Shown: positions 5,049 to 55,437, counted from the stretch's first letter. The stretch: DNA of 64,000 bases from Mariprofundus sp. (GCA_021772775.1 JAJFLH010000031.1:62001-126000); one strand, 5' to 3'. The notes: generated by a model from the letters alone, not told the origin. A program made the numbers and translations.

Positions 5049-6401
5049 GTGATTGCATGTCATGAGTGTGATGCGTTGCATCAGCTGAAAGCTCTTCCTG
5101 AACATGGCAGGGCACATTGCTTATGTTGTGATGCAGTTTTGTATAAACATATCTCATCACAAGCCGTTCATCATAGTCTGGCCCTACATCTAACTGCTCT
5201 GTTGTTGTTTATCATCGCCAACTCTTTCCCCTTCTTGTCATTGAAGCTGGCCGGACGAGTGGAGACAGATATGTTATTATCGGGGCCATTGGCACTGATT
5301 GAGATTGGCATGCATGATATTGGTTTGTTGGTATTGTTAACCAGTATTGTGTTTCCACTGATCACTATGCTTGCTTCGTTATATCTGCTTATTCCGGCAT
5401 ATCTGGGTTTTCGTGCTATTGGTCTGACCGCCGTTTTCAGGCTCGTGCAACGCCTGATGCTGTGGAGTTTGTTTGGCGTTTTTATGTTGGCAGTATTGAT
5501 CGCGATAGTAAAACTGTTGGATCTGGCTGAGATCGAAGTGGGCATATCATTGATCGCATTTGCAGCTCTACTGCCGGTGAGTGTAATGGCTCTGCATAGT
5601 ATGGATGCTCAGCTATTTTGGCCGCATCGCTTTCATAATTGTGATGCAGAGGATCAGATGGTAACCGCGAAGCTTCCGTTGGTAACCGCTCTCAAATCAG
5701 GGCTATTGCATTGCCATACATGCTCATTGCCAGTACAGGCTAGATCACAAGCTTTGCAGCAGAATCAAGTCGAAACTCTGCACTGTCCACGTTGTCATAG
5801 CCTGTTACATACCCGAAAACCTAATAGTATAAACCGAACTTGGGCCTTACTGATCGCTGCGATCATGCTGCTTTTTCCAGCCAACCTTTTACCGATCATG
5901 ACTGTGACCCGATTCGGACAGGGGGATCCGAGCACCATTTTATCCGGTGTTGAACACCTGATCTCTGCAGGCATGTGGCATCTTGGTCTGATTGTATTTT
6001 TTGCCAGTATCATGGTACCTGTGAGTAAGCTACTGACGTTAATGTTTTTATTGCTATCGGTGCATTTCAGATCTTTTTGGCGACCTTATGACCGCACCCG
6101 ACTATACCGAATGACAGAAATGATTGGTTCCTGGTCTATGGTTGATATCTTTATCATTGGTATTTTGACCTCTCTGGTCAGCCTCGATGTGTTAGCTACC
6201 ATTGAGCCGGGGCCTGCTGCCAGTTATTTTGCTGCTTCAGTGGTGTTGACGATGCTGGCTGCTCAAAGCTTTGATCCGCGTCTGATTTGGGATGGAATTG
6301 CTGCTGAGACGATAGATGAGAAAGCTGTAAAAGAAGATTCTGGGATGAGTGAGAGGGTATTCATGCAACAGAGTAAAGCAGTAGGCCAGTCGGATGGGTG
6401 A
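5049..6401 (+). CDS. pqiA: PqiA-like membrane protein, two PqiA domains
   Basis: This is an inner-membrane protein of the paraquat-inducible family, which works with MCE proteins (PqiB) in transport of lipids across the envelope. The 450 residues hold two repeats, each opening with a rubredoxin-like zinc site: CHEC...CLCC at the N-terminus and CHTC...CPRC near residues 225-255. Each is followed by about four hydrophobic segments. The start is GTG 5049; an in-frame TAG sits 6 nt upstream, so no earlier start exists, and no strong ribosome-binding site is seen. The 3' end overlaps the next gene by 8 nt. This is the first gene of a five-gene operon running to 12432. Confidence 0.88.
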   Translation: MIACHECDALHQLKALPEHGRAHCLCCDAVLYKHISSQAVHHSLALHLTALLLFIIANSFPFLSLKLAGRVETDMLLSGPLALIEIGMHDIGLLVLLTSIVFPLITMLASLYLLIPAYLGFRAIGLTAVFRLVQRLMLWSLFGVFMLAVLIAIVKLLDLAEIEVGISLIAFAALLPVSVMALHSMDAQLFWPHRFHNCDAEDQMVTAKLPLVTALKSGLLHCHTCSLPVQARSQALQQNQVETLHCPRCHSLLHTRKPNSINRTWALLIAAIMLLFPANLLPIMTVTRFGQGDPSTILSGVEHLISAGMWHLGLIVFFASIMVPVSKLLTLMFLLLSVHFRSFWRPYDRTRLYRMTEMIGSWSMVDIFIIGILTSLVSLDVLATIEPGPAASYFAASVVLTMLAAQSFDPRLIWDGIAAETIDEKAVKEDSGMSERVFMQQSKAVGQSDG

Positions 6402-8085
6402 ACAACAGATTGATACAGCCAGTACAGGGCAGCCCGTTGTAAAAATGGCCAGCAAGTTTTCAATCATCTGGTTGATTCCTCTACTCACCTTGTGCGTTGG
6501 CCTGTGGTTAATTGTCAAAACTATTCAAGAACAAGGGCCAGAAATCACCATTACCCTGCAAACAGCTGAGGGTATTGAAGCCGGGAAAACGCCGATCAAA
6601 TATAAAGATGTACAAATTGGTATGGTGGAGGAGATAAAGTTTACCAAAGGTTTCAAACATGTAGTGCTGAAAGCGCGTTTAAAACCTGAAGCTGAATCAT
6701 TTTTGCATCGTGATACGCGGTTTTGGGTAGTGCGTCCGCAACTTAGTCTGCGCGGTGTGTCCGGTTTAGGTACGCTGGTCAGTGGTTCCTATATTGAAAT
6801 TGATCCCGGCCTTGGGGCTCGCCAATATCATTTTAAGGGTTTGGATGAAGCTCCCATTGTGAAGTCAGATGTAGATGGTCTGCGTGTGACGTTGATTTCA
6901 AAGAAGCTGGGCTCTTTGGATATTGGTTCACCGGTCTATTATCAGGGTATTCAAGCTGGTGAAGTACTTGGTTATGAACTCTCCAATGATAAACACAGCA
7001 TATTTGTACATGCTTTTGTGCGAGCTCCCTACGATGAACTGGTGCATGGCAATAGCCATTTCTGGAATGTCAGCGGTATCAATCTGTCGATGGGAGCCGA
7101 TGGATTTCAATTACAGACCAGCTCGCTACAGTCGATGCTATACGGTGGCATCTCATTTGATTCACAAAATAGGCCAGATAGCCCGAATGAAGATGCGGAA
7201 CAGCTCGTTTTTACCCTGTTTGAAAATTACGATGATATTATTGCAAAAACCTATACCAGAAAATTCCGTTTTATTGTCTTCTTCGATGGTTCCGTACGTG
7301 GTTTAAGTGTTGGGGCTCCAGTTGAGTTTAAGGGGATCCAGGTAGGTCTGGTGACCGATGTGCGTTTGGAGTTTGACAGCTCAGATGCCAGTTTTCAAAT
7401 TCCGGTGATGCTCGAAATCGAGCCGGAACGCATTGTAGAGAGCAATGCGGAGAGTGAGATATCATCGGTCGAAGTGCTGGCGAGTTTGGTGGCACGCGGG
7501 CTTCGTGCACAGCTTCAAACCGGTAATTTACTGACCGGAAAACTGTATGTCGCACTGGATATGCATCCTGATACACCGATTCGTTTTCTGGCGAATAAAG
7601 GCAGCCAATTGCCGGAAATCCCTTCTATTCCAGGTGGCTTTGATCAAATCACCACATCGTTGCAAAGCATATTAGCCAAACTCGACAGAGTTCAGACCGA
7701 TAAAATTGGTAATGATTTGGCAGCACTGGTGCATAGCAGTAATAATTTAATCAATGGCCCTGCAACAGCGCAATCCATTGGTGATCTACGTGCTTCATTG
7801 AAATCATTCAGACACGTTATTGAATCATTGGATCAACATGCAGAACCGATGGCAGAGAATCTTCACCAGGCGCTTAATTCAGGGCGCACTACCCTGGAGG
7901 AGGCAGAAAAAACCCTGCACAACATCAACAACTCTTTAGATCCTGCTTCGCCATTACAATATCGTGTTAATCAATTGAGTCAGGATCTGTCGGATATGGC
8001 GCGGGCCATTCGCTCCTTTGTCGACTTGCTTGAGCGCCATCCTAATGCAGTCATCTTTGGCAGCCCCAAATCAGGAGAACAATAA
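6394..8085 (+). CDS. pqiB: PqiB-like MCE protein with three MCE domains
   Basis: This protein is anchored in the inner membrane and spans the periplasm as part of a lipid-transport channel. After a short cytoplasmic tail, one membrane segment (about residues 24-42, FSIIWLIPLLTLCVGLWLIV) leads to three MCE domains. Their hallmark blocks are EAGKTPIKYKDVQIG, DIGSPVYYQGIQAG and SVGAPVEFKGIQVG. The C-terminal part (about 420-563) is helical, with heptad-like leucines, as expected for the PqiB needle. Length (563) is close to E. coli PqiB. It overlaps pqiA by 8 nt, and its TAA shares a base with the pqiC ATG (TAATG). Confidence 0.92.
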   Translation: MGEQQIDTASTGQPVVKMASKFSIIWLIPLLTLCVGLWLIVKTIQEQGPEITITLQTAEGIEAGKTPIKYKDVQIGMVEEIKFTKGFKHVVLKARLKPEAESFLHRDTRFWVVRPQLSLRGVSGLGTLVSGSYIEIDPGLGARQYHFKGLDEAPIVKSDVDGLRVTLISKKLGSLDIGSPVYYQGIQAGEVLGYELSNDKHSIFVHAFVRAPYDELVHGNSHFWNVSGINLSMGADGFQLQTSSLQSMLYGGISFDSQNRPDSPNEDAEQLVFTLFENYDDIIAKTYTRKFRFIVFFDGSVRGLSVGAPVEFKGIQVGLVTDVRLEFDSSDASFQIPVMLEIEPERIVESNAESEISSVEVLASLVARGLRAQLQTGNLLTGKLYVALDMHPDTPIRFLANKGSQLPEIPSIPGGFDQITTSLQSILAKLDRVQTDKIGNDLAALVHSSNNLINGPATAQSIGDLRASLKSFRHVIESLDQHAEPMAENLHQALNSGRTTLEEAEKTLHNINNSLDPASPLQYRVNQLSQDLSDMARAIRSFVDLLERHPNAVIFGSPKSGEQ

Positions 8086-8735
8086 TGTATACGGTTTGTC
8101 GTAAGTTATATTTTCTACTGCTCTTATCGTTGCCGATATTTGCCAGCGGATGTGGCGGCAGTGCTGTCACGCAGTATTATCTGTTGAATACCGTACCACC
8201 CGAAAAAACTGCAGTAGCTGTTGCTCCAAAGGATGAAGATGTGAATGCAATCGAAGATCGTTCCATTCAAAGGGTCGCAATCCGTCAGCTTGAAATTCCG
8301 CGTTATCTTGATCGACCTCGCATTGTCAGTCGAGATGCAGATAACCATCTGCGTATTGCTGAATCGCATCAGTGGGGCGGGCGTTTGCGTGAAGATATTG
8401 CGCGCACCTTAAGTGATGATATTGCCGAGCGCCTGCCTTCGGTTGATCTGCGCACAGCACCATTTCCGGGTTCCATGCATGCTGATGCATCATTGCTGAT
8501 TGATATTCGACAGTTTGAATTGCTGGCCGATGGATACATGCATATGAAAGTGCGCTGGCATGTGCAATTAAAGGGTAAAGCTTCACAGAGTTATTTTAAT
8601 CACCTGACCAGTGATAGCCCTATTGGTGAACGGGATTATGCTGCTATGGCTGCATCAATGTCCAGGTTATTGGCACGGCTGGCAGATCAAATGGCGTCTG
8701 AAATAATCAAGTTGCCGATGCAGGAGCAGCCCTAA
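8085..8735 (+). CDS. pqiC: PqiC-type outer-membrane lipoprotein
   Basis: This 216-residue protein starts with a lipoprotein signal peptide whose lipobox FASGC places the lipidated Cys near residue 23. The mature start (TQYYLLNTV) and the later IAIRQLEIPRYLDRPRIVSR-like segment match the PqiC/YmbA (ABC-type transport auxiliary) family. That family caps the PqiB needle at the outer membrane. The gene is coupled to pqiB by a 1-nt stop/start overlap. Its position as third gene in a pqiA-pqiB-pqiC order is the family standard and makes the call firm. Confidence 0.88.
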   Translation: MYTVCRKLYFLLLLSLPIFASGCGGSAVTQYYLLNTVPPEKTAVAVAPKDEDVNAIEDRSIQRVAIRQLEIPRYLDRPRIVSRDADNHLRIAESHQWGGRLREDIARTLSDDIAERLPSVDLRTAPFPGSMHADASLLIDIRQFELLADGYMHMKVRWHVQLKGKASQSYFNHLTSDSPIGERDYAAMAASMSRLLARLADQMASEIIKLPMQEQP

Positions 8736-8737
8736 GG

Positions 8738-9715
8738 GTGTTTCAGCCATCGGTGATTAAACGCTCTGCAGTAGTATCTATGCTACTCGTTTATGTCGCT
8801 GTTCTATTATTCGTTTCAATCGGCATGTTTAGTACACCCTTATATGCAACTGCTGTAACGATAAAACATGATGAGCAATCCATGCGTTTGGCAGAGCTGA
8901 CAGGTCAAGAGATTATCATGGAGTCACTTCGTAGACATGAGCTATATCCCTATGTTTATGAAGAGCAGACCCTGATACTGATGGATGAGAAACAGCATAG
9001 GGATGTGCGTCGCATTCAGCGTTATTCGAGACTAGAGAAGAGTGGTTCACTCAAAGCGATGATTAAATTTATCTATCCAGAGTCGATTGCCGGGGCTTCG
9101 TTGCTTTTTATGCGTAAGCAGAATGGATTACGAAATAGTCGTTTTTACTTGCCTGCACTTGCTATGAAGCCAATCAATTACAGTGGTAGCGTGCTGGGTA
9201 GTCAGATGTTGGGCAGTGAATTTTCATTGGAAGATCTCATGCCCGAAAATATCCACGCGTTTGTTTATCATCGTATTGCAGATGTGATGGATAATGACAG
9301 GCGTTATTTTGTGGTGCAGGCGGTCGCGACTGCCAGTGAGGATATTCACCGCACATACGTCAAACGCATCTTACTTATTCGGCAGGATAACTTTTTTGTC
9401 ACTCATATTGATTACCTAGATGAGGAGAGCCAACTGCTAAAAAGGCAGACACGGCATGATATCAGGCAGGTAAATGGGGAAATGTGGCGTGCAGATATGG
9501 TGATGGTGGAAAACTTTGTGAATCATCATCGTTCAATTTTGAAGATCGACCGCCGTGTATACTCGATCGATTATGTACCTGCTTCGATGTTTGAAATAGC
9601 CAATCATTTAGATGGCACAGCAGGTCCTCTTGATAACGCCCGCGCTTCTGAACAAGCAGAGAGAGCGAAATCAACAGCGGCAATGAATATAAGCGAAGCA
9701 GGAGAGATACGATGA
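8738..9715 (+). CDS. LolA-like outer-membrane lipoprotein-sorting protein
   Basis: This periplasmic protein has a signal peptide (hydrophobic stretch about residues 14-37, likely cleavage after YATA). It resembles the LolA/LolB-fold 'outer membrane lipoprotein-sorting' proteins that partner MMPL/RND lipid exporters: a repeated-strand region with RRIQRYSRLEKSG, MIKFIYPESIAGASLL and a FYLPAL segment. Known members bind acyl chains and pass lipids to or from the RND pump. GTG 8738 is only 3 nt past the pqiC stop; ATG 8780 (residue 15) is a possible alternative start. The stop overlaps the ATG of the RND gene (ATGA). The family assignment is by motif pattern and context. Confidence 0.7.
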   Translation: MFQPSVIKRSAVVSMLLVYVAVLLFVSIGMFSTPLYATAVTIKHDEQSMRLAELTGQEIIMESLRRHELYPYVYEEQTLILMDEKQHRDVRRIQRYSRLEKSGSLKAMIKFIYPESIAGASLLFMRKQNGLRNSRFYLPALAMKPINYSGSVLGSQMLGSEFSLEDLMPENIHAFVYHRIADVMDNDRRYFVVQAVATASEDIHRTYVKRILLIRQDNFFVTHIDYLDEESQLLKRQTRHDIRQVNGEMWRADMVMVENFVNHHRSILKIDRRVYSIDYVPASMFEIANHLDGTAGPLDNARASEQAERAKSTAAMNISEAGEIR

Positions 9716-12432
9716 ATCGAATCATCATGCTCGGATTACGGCATCGTCTGTTATTGCTATTAACCATAACTGCTTTGACTGTGTTGGCTGCCGTCGGTAT
9801 GCAAGGCTTACACATTGATACAGGCACAGAGAGCATGATTGCAAAAGGCTCTGCCAGCCACCTGCGTTATGAGGCTGTGGTGGAAGAGTTTGGGTCGGAT
9901 AAGCAAACGCTCATCTTTGTGCGCGACAAAGCATTGTGGAGTACAGAAAAACTTACATATTTAAAAGCTTTGCATACACGTCTGGCTGCATTGGAAATAG
10001 TAGAGAGTGTCGAGGATCTTTTCACACTTCGCAGTTTGCGTGGTGAAGAGGGGCGTATCAGTTCAACGCTGTTGATGGATTATATTCCACAGAGTCCTGC
10101 AGATGTCGATCAGCTAAAAAAAGATATTTTATATAACCCTTTGGTGAAGGGAAATCTCATTTCAGCCGGTGGTGAAGCGCTGGCATTGATGGTGACGATT
10201 AGGCCTTCTGCCATGCAACAACTGGGGCATGCTAAAGTATATGAAATGATGCAACAGGAGATCAATCCATCTTCCATGCATTTTGAGCGTTTGTTTCAAA
10301 TTGGTGCAGCACGCATTCAGACGGAGATGGAAGAGACGCTATTTTTGGATATGCGGAACTTAGCTCCGCTATCTGCAGGCCTTATTTTATTGGTGATTTT
10401 GCTATTCATGCGCAGCGTCACTGCCGCTTTTATACCACTGCTGACCGCTGGTATAAGTTTAGTATGGACACTGGGCATGATGGGGTGGGCCGGTATTCCG
10501 GTAAATATTTTAAGTGCGATGCTACCGACATTGATTATTGTCATTGGATCGACAGAAGATACCCATTTGATCGCATCCTTTTTGGCCACACGTAGGCAGT
10601 ACCCTGATCGGGAGCCTGAATTCTGTGTGCGACGGATGCTGAATAAAATGGGTTTACCGCTGCTGTTAACCATACTCACCACCGTTCTCGGTTTTGCCGG
10701 CAATATTTTCAGTAATATGGAGTTGATTCGTGATTTTGCACTGGCATCCAGTTTTGCCATGTTAGCTAATGGTTTGATTACCCTCATGTTGGTGCCTGTC
10801 ATGCTTATTATGATGGCTGCCCCTAAAACATCTGGAAACAGAGCGAGCGGTGAGGGGTGGTTATCCAGAGGAATACTTCAACTCAATAATCAATCCAATC
10901 TCAGCCTGCAACGTCTGCTACTTGGTGGGACTCTGTTGTTGTGTGCCTTTTTCCTTTATCAGGCATCCAAGCTCTATGTAACCAATGATCCGATGTCCTA
11001 TTTCAAACAGGATCGGGCTTTGATCACGGATGCCAACGAAGTGCACCTACACCTGGCTGGCATCAAAACATTCTTTATCACCGTTCAATCCGATGAGGAG
11101 CAGGCTTTCTTACAACCCAAACAACTGCGTAAGCTGGAGGTGATTGAGAGCTTTATTCATACGCAGAATGTGTTTGACCGCAGCATATCGCTGGTCGATT
11201 ATATGAAGTTATTGAATCGTGAATTTCATGCGGGTGACGAACAGTGGTATGAGCTGCCAAACAACAAAGAGATGGCATCACAATATCTGTTATTTATGCA
11301 TCGGCAGGAGTTAAAGCGTTATGTAAGCCATGATTATCGGCGAGCCATGATCGTAGTTCGCCATCATATTAGCGATTCCAATCTGTTGAATCGCAGCGTT
11401 GATGAATTAAGAGAAGTAGCAGCAGAGATCGTTGGCGCTGATATGCAGGTATATATTGTCGGCGAAAACCTCATGATCAATGAAGAAGCTGATTCACTTT
11501 TACATGCTCAGGTTGAATCATTGATGATATTTCTAGGCATTATTTTCTTGCTGATGTCAGCCATGTTTACATCCTTTAAGGGTGGTTTGATTGCCATGGT
11601 TCCGAGTCTTATCCCGATCATTTTGATGTTTGGGGTCATGGGGTTACTGGGCATACCACTTAATCCAGGTACTGCGATGGTGGCCGTGATTGCTATTGGT
11701 ATAGCAATTGATAGCACGATTCATATGCTTTCCAGTTATAATAAACATAGCCGGGATATGGGCAATGCAGCGCTAGCCGTTCAGAAAACGGTATATGAAG
11801 AAGCACTTCCGATGATCACAACCACCGTCGCATTGGCATTGGGTTTTGGCATTTTACTGGCCTCTGACTTTGCCATTATTGGCCAGTTTGGTGCATTGGC
11901 TGCCGCCACGATGCTGTTTGCCCTGTTCGCTAATTTGATTGTGACGCCATTAATTATGTCGCGCATGCGATTGGTTAGCCTGTATGATATTTTAGCTCTG
12001 TCCATGGACAAACAAGCGCTGCGATCATCTCAGCTGTTCAATGACATGTCTGATTATCAGATCCGTAAAGCGATGCTGATTTCTGAAATGAAAAACTTTC
12101 AAAAAGGTGCCCGGATTATTGAGCAGGGTTGCCTCGACCGTAGTATGTATCTGTTGATTCGTGGTGAAGTCGATGTGGTGCATCATGCCAAAGACGGCGA
12201 CGATATGCTGCTGGCCCGATTGAAACCCGGTGACTTGTTCGGTGAGATTGCATTTGTCGGAGAGATACGGCGCACCGCTGATGTTATTGCAATAGGAGCT
12301 GTCTCTGTCGTGAAATTTGATTATGAACGTTTAAAACATGATCTGCGCTATTTCCCCCGTATTGTGGCGAAGTTAAACTTCAACATCAGCTATATACTTG
12401 GCAAACGATTAGCCGGCACATTAAAGGATTAA
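9712..12432 (+). CDS. RND/MMPL-family exporter with C-terminal cyclic-nucleotide-binding domain
   Basis: This 906-residue inner-membrane protein has the RND layout: one N-terminal membrane helix, a periplasmic loop, five or six helices (about 215-370), a second helix and loop, then a second helix bundle (about 600-760). Tell-tale segments are VIGSTEDTHLIASF and IAIGIAIDSTIHML, the charged helix-4-type motifs of proton-driven lipid or hopanoid exporters. From about residue 775 a cNMP-binding domain follows, with its phosphate-binding cassette at about 841-862: DLFGEIAFVGEIRRTADV keeps the Gly-Glu pair and the Arg that bind the cyclic phosphate. The domain would sit in the cytoplasm. The gene overlaps the LolA-like gene by 4 nt. 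A cNMP-gated lipid exporter is the natural inference; the ligand is not known. Confidence 0.88.
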   Translation: MNRIIMLGLRHRLLLLLTITALTVLAAVGMQGLHIDTGTESMIAKGSASHLRYEAVVEEFGSDKQTLIFVRDKALWSTEKLTYLKALHTRLAALEIVESVEDLFTLRSLRGEEGRISSTLLMDYIPQSPADVDQLKKDILYNPLVKGNLISAGGEALALMVTIRPSAMQQLGHAKVYEMMQQEINPSSMHFERLFQIGAARIQTEMEETLFLDMRNLAPLSAGLILLVILLFMRSVTAAFIPLLTAGISLVWTLGMMGWAGIPVNILSAMLPTLIIVIGSTEDTHLIASFLATRRQYPDREPEFCVRRMLNKMGLPLLLTILTTVLGFAGNIFSNMELIRDFALASSFAMLANGLITLMLVPVMLIMMAAPKTSGNRASGEGWLSRGILQLNNQSNLSLQRLLLGGTLLLCAFFLYQASKLYVTNDPMSYFKQDRALITDANEVHLHLAGIKTFFITVQSDEEQAFLQPKQLRKLEVIESFIHTQNVFDRSISLVDYMKLLNREFHAGDEQWYELPNNKEMASQYLLFMHRQELKRYVSHDYRRAMIVVRHHISDSNLLNRSVDELREVAAEIVGADMQVYIVGENLMINEEADSLLHAQVESLMIFLGIIFLLMSAMFTSFKGGLIAMVPSLIPIILMFGVMGLLGIPLNPGTAMVAVIAIGIAIDSTIHMLSSYNKHSRDMGNAALAVQKTVYEEALPMITTTVALALGFGILLASDFAIIGQFGALAAATMLFALFANLIVTPLIMSRMRLVSLYDILALSMDKQALRSSQLFNDMSDYQIRKAMLISEMKNFQKGARIIEQGCLDRSMYLLIRGEVDVVHHAKDGDDMLLARLKPGDLFGEIAFVGEIRRTADVIAIGAVSVVKFDYERLKHDLRYFPRIVAKLNFNISYILGKRLAGTLKD

Positions 12433-12822
12433 ATTATGATCTGATGTATGATTGTCTAAAATATTGTTCTAAAACATATAGCGCGTCGTTCTGATCAGCA
12501 TATCAATGTTGACAGAGGCCAGGGAAACCGCATTAAAATATCCTCAGTTTACGATCATGACTCAGCATGTTTCACCGGCCGATGCTGCGCATCACAGGGG
12601 GGGGCCATAGTGCACGCATAGTAAAAACAACAAGAGATGCAATCCTCATCTCTGGCTCTCCGGTTAGGATTGTTTTTTGATTATTGTATTGATTTATCTG
12701 CGTCCTTTGCGGTAAATGCTTTTGAACTATTCTAATGAGATCGCTTTGTGGAAGTAGCCCGCTTTATTGCTTAGAGTTCTCTTGATAAGTATGGTATAAC
12801 TCGATCTTCTCTAAGGGAGAAA
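12433..12822. other. Intergenic region with no gene seen
   Basis: These 390 nt between the RND exporter and the response regulator contain no plausible ORF. They hold a G8 tract (12597-12604) and the paired inverted repeats at 12633-12678. The promoter of the response regulator must lie in the AT-rich second half. Confidence 0.6.
12633..12678 (+). terminator. Interleaved inverted repeats ending in T6: terminator or pseudoknot
   Basis: AGAGATG (12633-12639) pairs perfectly with CATCTCT (12647-12653). The 7-nt loop between them, CAATCCT (12640-12646), pairs perfectly with AGGATTG (12666-12672), which is followed at once by TTTTTT (12673-12678). The outer pair with the T-run looks like an intrinsic terminator. 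The two stems overlap in the manner of an H-type pseudoknot or two exclusive states. It lies 200 nt after the RND stop and 145 nt before the leader peptide. Confidence 0.5.
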
Positions 12823-12870
12823 ATGATGAAAGGTAGATATCTATATCCTATTTATGCAAAACAGCAGTGA
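12823..12870 (+). CDS. Candidate 15-residue leader peptide
   Basis: The ORF ATG ATG AAA ... TGA encodes MMKGRYLYPIYAKQQ. It has a good ribosome-binding site, AAGGGAGA (12813-12820), which the response-regulator ATG at 12854 lacks. Its stop lies 17 nt inside the regulator gene in another frame, so translation of the peptide could feed translation of the regulator. It is rich in Tyr (3 of 15). No homologue is claimed. Confidence 0.4.
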   Translation: MMKGRYLYPIYAKQQ

Positions 12871-13672
12871 TTTATCTATGAATCAATGCAATACGAACTC
12901 AGGTTTGTCACCATTAAAACCCACCGTATTGATTATTGATGACAATCAAATTTCCCTGACATATTTGACCATCATGTTGGATGATAATGTTAATATACTC
13001 ACAGCCACAAATGCGAGTGCAGGTTTAGAGGTACTGCAGGAGGGGCATCATATATCCGTTGTACTACTGGATCTCATGCTGCCTGATCTCAATGGCCTCG
13101 AGGTATTGAGAAAAATCAGAAACAATGAAAAAACGTCTGATATGAATGTTATTATTATCACCGGATCGATGAATAATGAGTGGATGCTTCGCTCAGCTAA
13201 TATGAATATTCAGGGCTATTTTAAGAAACCATTTGATGGCGCAAGCCTGATTGATCGTATTATGGAATTAAGTGGTAATGTGAAGGCATTGGACCACATG
13301 GCTTTAAGAGATTTGTGGGGGGAGGATTTTGAAACCCGCATGCAAGCTATTGGATCTATTGTGAAACCTGCCCTTATCTATATCAATGAGAATTTTCATA
13401 GAACATGCCGTAGGGATAATTTAGCGAATCAGCTGGGGATTTCTCCTGATTATCTGAGTCGCATCTTTAAAAAAGAGGTTGGCATCTGTCTGAATGAATA
13501 TATCTCGCATTGTAGAGTACATCTGAGTCGAGATCTGCTTATTAACCAGCCCGAAATGAAAGTGAAAAGTATTGCCCGATACGCTGGGATTCCTGATGTA
13601 GATTACTTTTGCAAAGTGTTTAAAAAACACACCGGTTATACGCCGAATGAATATCGACAAAAGTCGATATAG
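12854..13672 (+). CDS. Response regulator with AraC-type DNA-binding domain
   Basis: The 272-residue protein has an N-terminal receiver domain with acidic pair Asp29-Asp30, phospho-acceptor Asp73 (VVLLDLMLPD), Thr103 and Lys124/125 (GYFKKPF). A linker leads to an AraC/XylS double helix-turn-helix (about 175-270), with LANQLGISPDYLSRIFKKEVG and FCKVFKKHTGYTPNEYRQ. It should be a phosphorylation-controlled transcription factor. No sensor kinase is adjacent, so its partner is elsewhere. The start ATG 12854 has no ribosome-binding site of its own but overlaps a well-placed leader ORF; ATG 12878 is a second candidate. The closest known architecture is the YesN-like REC-AraC family. Confidence 0.88.
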   Translation: MQNSSDLSMNQCNTNSGLSPLKPTVLIIDDNQISLTYLTIMLDDNVNILTATNASAGLEVLQEGHHISVVLLDLMLPDLNGLEVLRKIRNNEKTSDMNVIIITGSMNNEWMLRSANMNIQGYFKKPFDGASLIDRIMELSGNVKALDHMALRDLWGEDFETRMQAIGSIVKPALIYINENFHRTCRRDNLANQLGISPDYLSRIFKKEVGICLNEYISHCRVHLSRDLLINQPEMKVKSIARYAGIPDVDYFCKVFKKHTGYTPNEYRQKSI

Positions 13673-42802: not shown

Positions 42803-43390
42803 TTAAAGCAATTGAATCGATGATGCCTTTCTTATCAACTTCCCTTCGTTCTCAAGGCATTTTAAGTTGCGGTAAAATGTTTCATGCGCCAAGCCCAACT
42901 GATAAGCCATATCCTTGTAAGATAGTTGTAGATGTACCTCATGACCGCCATCTGCTTCAAGTTGGAAGTAGCAGTACATGCGCTGTTTGGCAGAGCGAAT
43001 ATTCTTGATCTCGAGCAGCGCGCGCAGATGGCGTATCCTGCGGGCAAACAGCTCTACTAGCTCCATCATGGTGTCAGGCTCACGTTTAAGGGCAATAAGC
43101 AGACTTTTCCTATCAAAACAGGATAGTTCTGCGGATTGGCTCTGTACAATGGCTGAACAGTGATATCTATCCGAAAATAGAGAGGCTTCGGCTATCATAT
43201 CTTTAGAAACGGCGAGCTGCAAAATGATGTCATTGCCATCGATAGAGTGGCGAACCAATTTGACCACACCTTGGCGTACGACATACATATACTCAACATG
43301 ATCGCCTTGATGAAACAGGTAATCACCCTTCTGAAGAAGACGCTTTTTGTCCGGCATGAGGCGCTGAAGAATGGCTGCTGAATCATCCAT
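42803..43390 (-). CDS. Crp/Fnr-family transcriptional regulator
   Basis: This 195-residue regulator has an N-terminal cNMP-like sensor fold (LFHQGDHVEYMYVVRQGVVK, then AEASLFSDRYHCSAIV) and a C-terminal winged helix (LSYKDMAYQLGLAHETFYRN). It lacks the N-terminal Cys set of oxygen-sensing Fnr, and the sensor cassette is not a clear cAMP site, so it is more like the Dnr/NO or redox-responding group. It is flanked by a cytochrome gene and a truncated haemoglobin gene, all on the minus strand. A palindrome near 43445-43459 (TGATT-TGCCC-AATCA) lies upstream of its start and may be an autoregulatory site. Confidence 0.88.
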   Translation of the reverse strand: MDDSAAILQRLMPDKKRLLQKGDYLFHQGDHVEYMYVVRQGVVKLVRHSIDGNDIILQLAVSKDMIAEASLFSDRYHCSAIVQSQSAELSCFDRKSLLIALKREPDTMMELVELFARRIRHLRALLEIKNIRSAKQRMYCYFQLEADGGHEVHLQLSYKDMAYQLGLAHETFYRNLKCLENEGKLIRKASSIQLL

Positions 43391-53298: not shown

Positions 53299-53433
53299 CC
53301 CTGTAGAGCTTCCAGTTAATTGCATGGCTACGGTTCAGTGAACTCATTTGTTTTCACTGGATCGAACAGTCGGCTGGAGTAGCGTCACGACAGTTATGCA
53401 AGCGCTGTGCTTATGCGGATTCGGGGAGAGAGA

Positions 53434-55437
53434 ATGAACCAACCAGGTAGTGAAGAAATTCCCCCAGACTTTTTATCTGCATTGAATTTGCAGGGGCCGG
53501 ACTCAGATCCCTGTCTGTTAGTGATCTTTGGTGCCTCGGGTGATTTGACCAAGCGTTTGCTTATTCCATCGTTGTTTAATCTGCATTGCGATGGCCTGTT
53601 GCCTGAACGTTTTGCGATTTTGGGCATGGCTATGGATGATTTCACAACAGAGTCCTTTCGCGAAAAGATGAGTGTGGATGTTCATGAGTTTTCTCGCCGC
53701 GAAGACTTTGATGATGCGCTCTGGTCAGAGTTTTGCGCTAAAATTCATTACCTCAGCGGACGTTTTGATGACACTAAAGCCTTTCAGGAACTGAACTTAT
53801 CTTTGCATCACCTTCATGATCAATACGATACCGACGGCAATGTGTTGTTTTATATGGCCACACCACCATCCGTATTTGGCATGATCTCTTCGAGTTTAGA
53901 GGCTGTTGCTTTAAATAGAGAAGAGGGCGTCTGGCGACGGATTATTGTTGAAAAACCGTTTGGTACGGATCTGGCATCGGCACAGGCATTGAATCGTGAA
54001 ATTCTTAACTATTGGCATGAACGTCAGGTCTATCGCATCGATCATTATCTGGGCAAAGAGACTGTTCAGAATCTGCTCGCATTCCGTTTTGCCAATGGCA
54101 TGTTTGAGCCACTGTGGAATCATACCCATATCGATCATATCCAGATTACAGCCGGTGAACAGGTGGGTGTGGAGTGGCGCGGTGGTTATTATGATAAATC
54201 CGGCGTGATTCGCGATATGATTCAAAATCATCTGTTTCAGATCATGGCTTATCTCTGCATGGAGCCACCGACATCATTCGATGCTGAAGCGATTCGCAAT
54301 GAGAAGTATAAACTGTTGAGTGCAGTACGTATTATGAAACATGAAGAGGTGAATGATCATGCCGTTCGTGGTCAATATGATGTTGGTACGCTGCCTGATG
54401 GTTCAGAGGCCAAAGGCTACCGACAGGAACACATGGTTGATCCGGACTCCAATACCGAGACCTATGCCGCACTGAAATTACACATTGATAACTGGCGTTG
54501 GCATGGCGTGCCTGTCTACATCCGTTCCGGTAAGGCATTAAAAAACAAATCGACTGAAATAGCCGTACAGTTTCATCGTGCCCCCGAATTCACCTTTAGA
54601 GGTACCCCCGCCGCTTCACAGCTGGAAGCCAATCAGCTTGTTTTTCATGTGCAGCCGAGTGAAGGGATTGAACTGCGCTTCCTGGCTAAGCGTCCTGGCC
54701 CGGCCATGCAGATGCGCAAGGTCAATATGCATTTTGAGTATGATGAAGCATTTATCTCAAATCCAGGCACGGGTTATGAAACCATGTTGCATGATTGTAT
54801 GCATGGCGATGCATCACTATTTTCCCGTTCAGACTTGGTGGAGATGGCCTGGAAGATAGTACAACCAATTCAGGAGGTTTGGAGCAGGGAAAAAGCGGAT
54901 CATTTCCCTAACTATCCCTTTGGATCATGGGGCCCTAAAGCAGCATTTGAGCTGTTGAAACCGGGCCATCGCCGCTGGTTGGCTCGTGCGCCGAGGGCGG
55001 CTTTAGAACGTGTACCAATGTTTGAAGGCAGTGGTGAAACGATGTTGCAAGCCTTTGCGATGATGCTCAAACCCGTGGTGTTCAATGCCGGCGATGAAAT
55101 TATCACTTATGGCTCTGAAGGCAGCGAATTTTTTATTATTCAAAGTGGTAGTGTCGAAATTATTACGCGTAAAGGTGAACTGATATCCACGCTGGAAGAT
55201 GGTCAGGTGTTTGGTGAATTGAGTCTGTTAATCTCGAAAACGCGTAGAGCAACGGTGCGGGCCAAGACATATTGTGCTCTTTATATCATGGAGAAGAGTG
55301 ATTTCTGTAAAGTGCTGATAGATCGGCCAGAGTTTGCTTCTCGACTGATGAAAACCGCTCGTGAACGTTATAATGTTATTGTTGATGCGCAGGAGTTGCT
55401 GGCATCGGAAATAGCCGATTTAAAGGATGCAACTTAA
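53434..55437 (+). CDS. zwf: Glucose-6-phosphate dehydrogenase fused to a cyclic-nucleotide-binding domain
   Basis: The first ~515 residues are a complete G6PDH: coenzyme motif GASGDLTKRL (from Gly33), EKPFGTD, the active-site RIDHYLGKE (Arg201 to Lys208) with IQNHLFQ, and RSGKALKNK. It oxidises glucose-6-phosphate to 6-phosphogluconolactone. A cNMP-binding domain follows from about 529, with FNAGDEIITYGSEGSEFFII and the phosphate-binding cassette VFGELSLLISKTRRATVR (Gly594, Glu595, then the Arg-Arg-Ala-Thr block), a complete ligand site. G6PDH is normally about 490-510 residues and ends before this domain. The start ATG 53434 follows GGGGAGAGAG. Cyclic-nucleotide control of the pentose phosphate entry step is the direct inference. 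Confidence 0.92.
   Translation: MNQPGSEEIPPDFLSALNLQGPDSDPCLLVIFGASGDLTKRLLIPSLFNLHCDGLLPERFAILGMAMDDFTTESFREKMSVDVHEFSRREDFDDALWSEFCAKIHYLSGRFDDTKAFQELNLSLHHLHDQYDTDGNVLFYMATPPSVFGMISSSLEAVALNREEGVWRRIIVEKPFGTDLASAQALNREILNYWHERQVYRIDHYLGKETVQNLLAFRFANGMFEPLWNHTHIDHIQITAGEQVGVEWRGGYYDKSGVIRDMIQNHLFQIMAYLCMEPPTSFDAEAIRNEKYKLLSAVRIMKHEEVNDHAVRGQYDVGTLPDGSEAKGYRQEHMVDPDSNTETYAALKLHIDNWRWHGVPVYIRSGKALKNKSTEIAVQFHRAPEFTFRGTPAASQLEANQLVFHVQPSEGIELRFLAKRPGPAMQMRKVNMHFEYDEAFISNPGTGYETMLHDCMHGDASLFSRSDLVEMAWKIVQPIQEVWSREKADHFPNYPFGSWGPKAAFELLKPGHRRWLARAPRAALERVPMFEGSGETMLQAFAMMLKPVVFNAGDEIITYGSEGSEFFIIQSGSVEIITRKGELISTLEDGQVFGELSLLISKTRRATVRAKTYCALYIMEKSDFCKVLIDRPEFASRLMKTARERYNVIVDAQELLASEIADLKDAT

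Follow-up and report, generated by a model that had tools for sequence, protein, structure and literature searches.

What does an RND transporter that ends in a cyclic-nucleotide-binding domain (cNBD) do at the end of a pqiABC operon? The question is raised by a stretch of 64,000 nucleotides of DNA from the iron-oxidising bacterium Mariprofundus sp. (GCA_021772775.1, JAJFLH010000031.1:62001-126000; hereafter the window), which comes from a genome of 3.12 Mb in 40 contigs. The named relatives of the RND gene are from Mariprofundus and other Zetaproteobacteria. On balance we favour the reading that the protein is a proton-driven RND lipid transporter, which would work with a LolA-like partner in the Pqi pathway and be gated by cAMP or cGMP.

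The operon and its transporter

Five open reading frames on the + strand, between positions 5049 and 12432, encode PqiA, PqiB, PqiC, a LolA-like protein and the RND protein (Table 1). The junctions are, in order, an 8-nucleotide overlap, a 1-nucleotide overlap, a 2-nucleotide gap and a 4-nucleotide overlap. The initial annotation of this DNA had described a pqiABC, LolA-like and RND operon, and the reading frames, their Pfam matches and their overlapping or narrowly separated ends agree with that description. The Pfam scores of all five proteins are far above cut-off. PqiA matches PF04403 (294.6 bits) and exceeds the cut-off for the PqiA/YebS subfamily (TIGR00155; 294.7, cut-off 260.35), and PqiB matches PF02470 in three stretches (132.5 bits) and just misses the cut-off of the PqiB model NF008070 (471.5 versus 525). 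PqiA, a three-MCE PqiB and a PqiC lipoprotein are encoded together and in order, as expected of PqiABC. The LolA-like protein has 3bk5 and 9tp6 among its relatives of solved structure (E about 1e-11).

The arrangement is not due to chance, since the same five-gene order recurs among relatives with RND identities as low as about 48%; pqiA is likewise syntenic in relatives. A search for an operon-specific promoter gave promoter-like sites no more often than chance would, and the gap at 12433-12853 showed no terminator-like site on the + strand. The gene beyond this 421-nucleotide gap, which encodes a response regulator/AraC protein (12854-13672), was considered as part of the system and rejected, as none of the eight Mariprofundaceae homologues has a match to it alongside.

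Table 1. Genes of the operon and parts of the RND-cNBD protein; positions are counted from the first nucleotide of the window.
Feature	Residues	Position	Strand	Remarks
pqiA		5049..6401	+	450 aa; inner-membrane protein, PqiA/LetA family
pqiB		6394..8085	+	563 aa; three MCE/MlaD domains; periplasm-spanning tunnel protein
pqiC		8085..8735	+	216 aa; predicted outer-membrane lipoprotein; PF03886 (ABC_trans_aux) 109.7 bits
LolA-like periplasmic lipid/lipoprotein carrier		8738..9715	+	325 aa; GTG start; PF17131 (LolA_like) 86.0 bits
RND-cNBD gene		9712..12432	+	906 aa; MMPL (PF03176) and cNMP_binding (PF00027)
RND/MMPL transporter body	1-752	9712..11967	+	12 predicted TM helices, two periplasmic domains
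Linker and N-terminal helical part of cNBD	753-790	11968..12081	+	mean pairwise identity 0.49, 18 homologues
Cyclic-nucleotide-binding domain	794-875	12091..12336	+	PF00027 64.5 bits, cut-off 27.5
Phosphate-binding cassette FGEIAFVGEIRRTAD	843-857	12238..12282	+	G844, E845, R854 invariant
C-terminal helix FPRIVAKLNFNISYILGKRL	881-900	12352..12411	+	mean pairwise identity 0.69

The RND protein matches PF03176 in two stretches, one in each half (103.3 bits), which makes it a member of the MMPL-type RND proteins. Its scores fall below the cut-offs for the HAE3 (TIGR00921; 172.9 versus 351.9) and HpnN (TIGR03480; 81.3 versus 751.85) families. The RND motifs read GSTEDTH in TM4 and GIAIDSTIH in TM10; among 18 fused homologues, E282 of TM4 and D667 of TM10 are invariant and D283 of TM4 is kept in 17. 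This conservation of acidic residues in TM4 and TM10 is consistent with proton coupling. An AlphaFold model built from the 18 sequences (pLDDT 84.9, pTM 0.78) replaced an earlier one built from eight (pLDDT 68). Among solved structures, Foldseek ranks MmpL4 and MmpL5 first (TM-score, by target length, 0.75-0.77) and NPC1L1, Patched, MmpL3 and HpnN next; the cargo of this group comprises lipids, sterols and lipid-like siderophores.

Origin of the fusion and its linkage to pqi genes

Of 74 Mariprofundaceae genomes, nine have the fusion at full length, and in one more (G055) a fragment of it lies at a contig end. Among 398 sampled Pseudomonadota, the fusion was also found in another family of the order to which the Mariprofundaceae belong and in five further families, together with a contig-end fragment in G160, and nowhere else in that sample. 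The five further families all fall in one class of 48 genomes, probably the Magnetococcia, since all 10 members tested for MamK scored above its cut-off. Extending the search around G101 and G144 yielded that class of 48 again, with no further fused members. RND proteins with the fusion (18) and without it (12) were placed on a tree that was built with the cNBD columns left out. The 18 fused proteins, from Zetaproteobacteria and the second class, form one clade (support 100/100, 100% of bootstrap trees), which shows a single origin of the fusion; convergent fusion is unsupported by the sampled proteins.

Twenty-one fused loci were collected, two of which could not be judged because they lie at contig ends (G004 and G160). 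pqi genes lie beside the RND-cNBD gene in 16 of the 19 judgeable loci, in two classes and in at least three gene orders. The initial annotation would have been refuted had this association never recurred in other genomes; it does recur, a second class included. Nine Mariprofundaceae loci have the order pqiABC-lolA-RND as far as their contigs extend, and three loci of the sister family (G134, G159 and G190) have it too. The gene orders differ in the four linked loci of the second class: RND-cNBD and pqiA are divergent in G144; lolA-RND is divergent from pqiABC, with one gene between, in G101; RND-cNBD and pqiC are tail to tail in G203; and in G181 RND-cNBD and pqiA are separated by a Ser/Thr kinase gene (L083, 8138-9784, - strand), with no LolA-like gene found adjacent to RND-cNBD. 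The pqiA gene itself varies in form, being split into two adjacent reading frames of about 210-330 aa each in several of the putative Magnetococcia (L087, L092, L106, L107 and L108) and forming one reading frame of 420-450 aa in Zetaproteobacteria and G181.

A PqiB-type gene is present in 10 of 10 fused genomes of the family versus 20 of 74 overall, and in 20 of 20 fused genomes of the phylum sample versus 184 of 398 overall; the hypergeometric values for this co-occurrence, near 1e-7, ignore relatedness. PqiB is nearly universal in the second class, so only adjacency is informative there. The RND-cNBD gene is unlinked to pqi in G156, G166 and G084, the last of which still keeps a LolA-like gene, and 10 pqi-bearing genomes of the family have no RND-cNBD gene, which is also lacking from about half of the pqi-bearing Zetaproteobacteria. 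Neither RND-cNBD nor pqi therefore strictly needs the other. It had been suggested that the five genes encode one machine for moving lipids between membranes; what stands of this is the conserved genetic linkage, and the three unlinked loci count against the rest.

Co-transcription of RND-cNBD with pqi may mean shared regulation only. In a less likely reading, PqiABC and the RND-cNBD/LolA-like pair would be two separate envelope systems that share only their regulation, under membrane stress for example; they would carry different cargo and make no contact, and the cNBD would still gate the RND protein. RND-LolA pairs without pqi are common (L095 in the window genome; L099, L100 and L102), and the three unlinked loci, G084 with its LolA-like gene among them, agree with this reading. 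That the linkage persists in two classes and under at least three arrangements of the genes, however, is more than one would expect from unrelated genes that are simply co-transcribed. Moreover, no pqi genes were found near seven unfused RND paralogue loci (L096-L102), and none were found near L095. We therefore retain a role for the RND-LolA-like pair in the Pqi pathway as the preferred reading.

The cyclic-nucleotide-binding domain and its proposed ligand

That the RND protein ends in a cyclic-nucleotide-binding domain was correctly noted in the initial annotation, and the cassette motif quoted there is exact (residues 843-857). The nearest solved relatives of the domain are the regulatory domains of PKG and PKA, and in the model it has the beta-roll strand pattern and a cassette helix at residues 845-849. 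Gly844, Glu845 and Arg854 are kept in all 18 fused homologues, which are 32-77% identical to the window protein; by homology to PKA and CRP, these residues presumably grip the ribose 2'-OH and the cyclic phosphate. The cassette Gly-Glu and Arg by which a cAMP or cGMP receptor is recognized in sequence are thus present. The residue following R854 is mostly Thr and sometimes Ser or Val, and because of this variation a preference for cAMP or cGMP is unreadable. Mean pairwise identity across the 18 proteins is 0.69 in the C-terminal helix, 0.61 in TM8-12, 0.60 in the cassette and 0.39 in cNBD strands 1-5. The helix is the most conserved stretch of the fused family, above any TM block, as expected if it contacts a conserved surface. 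In CRP and PKA, the corresponding helix relays ligand binding.

Cyclases, whose absence the initial annotation had named as fatal to its proposal, are present in the window genome: nine class III cyclase domains (PF00211) were found, and no class I adenylate cyclase. By reading, about six of the nine domains keep the usual catalytic Lys, Thr, Asn and Arg; an automatic motif read-out caught only five of the nine. Given these class III cyclases, cAMP or cGMP, the proposed ligand, is plausibly made in this organism. One cyclase (L016; GAF-GAF-PAS sensors) adjoins a gene for a stand-alone cNBD with an intact cassette (L004) on the same strand (G000:C1:3600-4918), and the two are likely a sensor-cyclase/effector pair.

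A genome-wide profile search found 14 cNBDs in 11 proteins, three with a Crp-type HTH and eight with no DNA-binding domain. The eight are the RND protein, a glucose-6-phosphate dehydrogenase (G6PDH), a Na+/H+ exchanger (L011), two stand-alone cNBDs and three proteins with paired cNBDs: one of metallo-beta-lactamase fold, one TPR protein and one whose cNBDs are degenerate. By motif reading, four of them have the full Gly-Glu...Arg (the RND protein, the G6PDH, the TPR protein and the stand-alone cNBD beside the cyclase), and the other four look degenerate. Wide post-translational use of cyclic nucleotides, as had been proposed for this organism, is thus in keeping with the number of proteins that have no DNA-binding domain, but is narrowed by the four that alone are motif-intact.

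The G6PDH, a central-metabolism enzyme with a C-terminal cNBD and an intact cassette (FGELSLLISKTRRATV), is encoded within the window (53407-55437, + strand) and is indeed a second such fusion in 64 kb. The third cNBD in the window (42803-43390, - strand) belongs to an ordinary Crp-type HTH protein. Elsewhere in the genome, the metallo-beta-lactamase fold protein (L012; G000:C20:98829-99422), in which both cNBDs are C-terminal, has a weak, sub-cut-off match to the anti-Pycsar Apyc1 family, and the double-cNBD protein L009 (G000:C5:31276-31926) has lost Gly-Glu...Arg from both cassettes.

Some cNBD-fold domains serve as dimerisation or docking modules or bind other ligands. We regard it as rather unlikely that the RND cNBD is of this kind, blind to cAMP and cGMP and serving as such a module or as a receptor for something else (c-di-GMP or a nucleoside). 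The greater conservation of the C-terminal helix than of the cassette would fit such a role, as would the loss of the motif from several other cNBDs of the genome. An intact motif is also no proof of cyclic-nucleotide binding, as a trypanosomatid PKA has kept the cNBD fold but takes nucleosides as its ligands (abstract of PMC10959531). Mere docking, however, would have no need of G844, E845 and R854, which do not change across 18 divergent proteins in which the surrounding strands vary, and cyclases are plentiful in the genome. A cAMP- or cGMP-binding domain is therefore kept in the reading that we prefer.

Proposed function and comparison with known systems

In the preferred reading, the MMPL-type RND protein would be proton-driven and would move its cargo, a lipid or a molecule resembling one, on the inner membrane's outer face. 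The product of the gene immediately upstream, the LolA-like periplasmic carrier, would be its partner in exchanging this cargo. The pair would act in the outer-membrane lipid-maintenance pathway of PqiABC. The cytoplasmic C-terminal cNBD would bind cAMP or cGMP from the cell's class III cyclases, and binding would shift the conserved C-terminal helix and thereby activate or shut off the transmembrane part. We infer the binding of the ligand, the gating, the coupling to protons, the substrate, the direction of transport (called export in the initial annotation) and the functional or physical coupling to Pqi. The long association of this probable lipid pump and its built-in cyclic-nucleotide sensor with pqi points to cAMP or cGMP as a likely switch for the movement of lipids in the cell envelope of these bacteria.

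A closer union, in which RND-cNBD would power, from the inner membrane, one Pqi machine that spans the envelope, feeding lipid into the PqiB tunnel directly or via the LolA-like carrier and supplying the drive that PqiA may lack, seems to us unlikely. Pqi lacks an ATPase, and how it is powered is open (PMC10897342), Pqi-like outer parts team with an Mla-type ABC transporter in Brucella (PMC12436622), and the genetic linkage points the same way; about half of the pqi-bearing relatives, however, do without RND-cNBD, and E. coli PqiABC comprises three genes only (PMC10897342). Equally doubtful is the fullest version, a cyclic-nucleotide-gated trans-envelope lipid machine in which RND-cNBD would give proton-motive drive to the Pqi tunnel via a LolA-like shuttle, and cAMP or cGMP would set lipid flow between inner and outer membrane at the protein level, without transcription.

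On the preferred reading, RND-cNBD is a concrete candidate partner for Pqi, the energising and regulation of which are open (PMC10897342). The locus presents what appears to be a second-messenger sensor built into a conserved transporter, and in two bacterial classes this transporter has stayed beside pqiABC. Should the ligand be confirmed, cyclic nucleotides would directly control envelope lipid transport and an RND protein.

Transporters with a fused cNBD are already known; an RND/MMPL-cNBD fusion was not found described in the open-licence literature. Both an MFS transporter (PMC10710835, in the part available) and the Na+/H+ exchanger L011 resemble the window protein in having a cytoplasmic cNBD appended to a secondary transporter, and differ from it in belonging to superfamilies other than RND/MMPL. 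The available part of PMC10710835 covers RND regulators such as AcrZ and names cNBD fusions for MFS only. The MMPL/HAE3 lipid transporters (MmpL3/4/5 and HpnN) share with the window protein the RND fold, two periplasmic domains and acidic residues in TM4 and TM10; unlike them, it has a cytoplasmic cNBD, sub-cut-off HAE3 and HpnN scores, and LolA-like and pqiABC partners. The RND-LolA-like pairs L095, L099, L100 and L102 also set an MMPL-type RND gene beside a LolA-like gene, but have no cNBD and no pqi genes nearby. E. coli PqiABC has the same three overlapping genes in the same order, whereas the window operon continues with the LolA-like and RND-cNBD genes, and its PqiB and PqiC score under the NCBIfam equivalog or exception cut-offs. 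Finally, the Mla-Pqi chimera Mpc of Brucella likewise combines Pqi-type parts with a different inner-membrane transporter (PMC12436622); its inner-membrane part is an Mla-type ABC transporter, whereas the window operon keeps pqiA and adds RND-cNBD.
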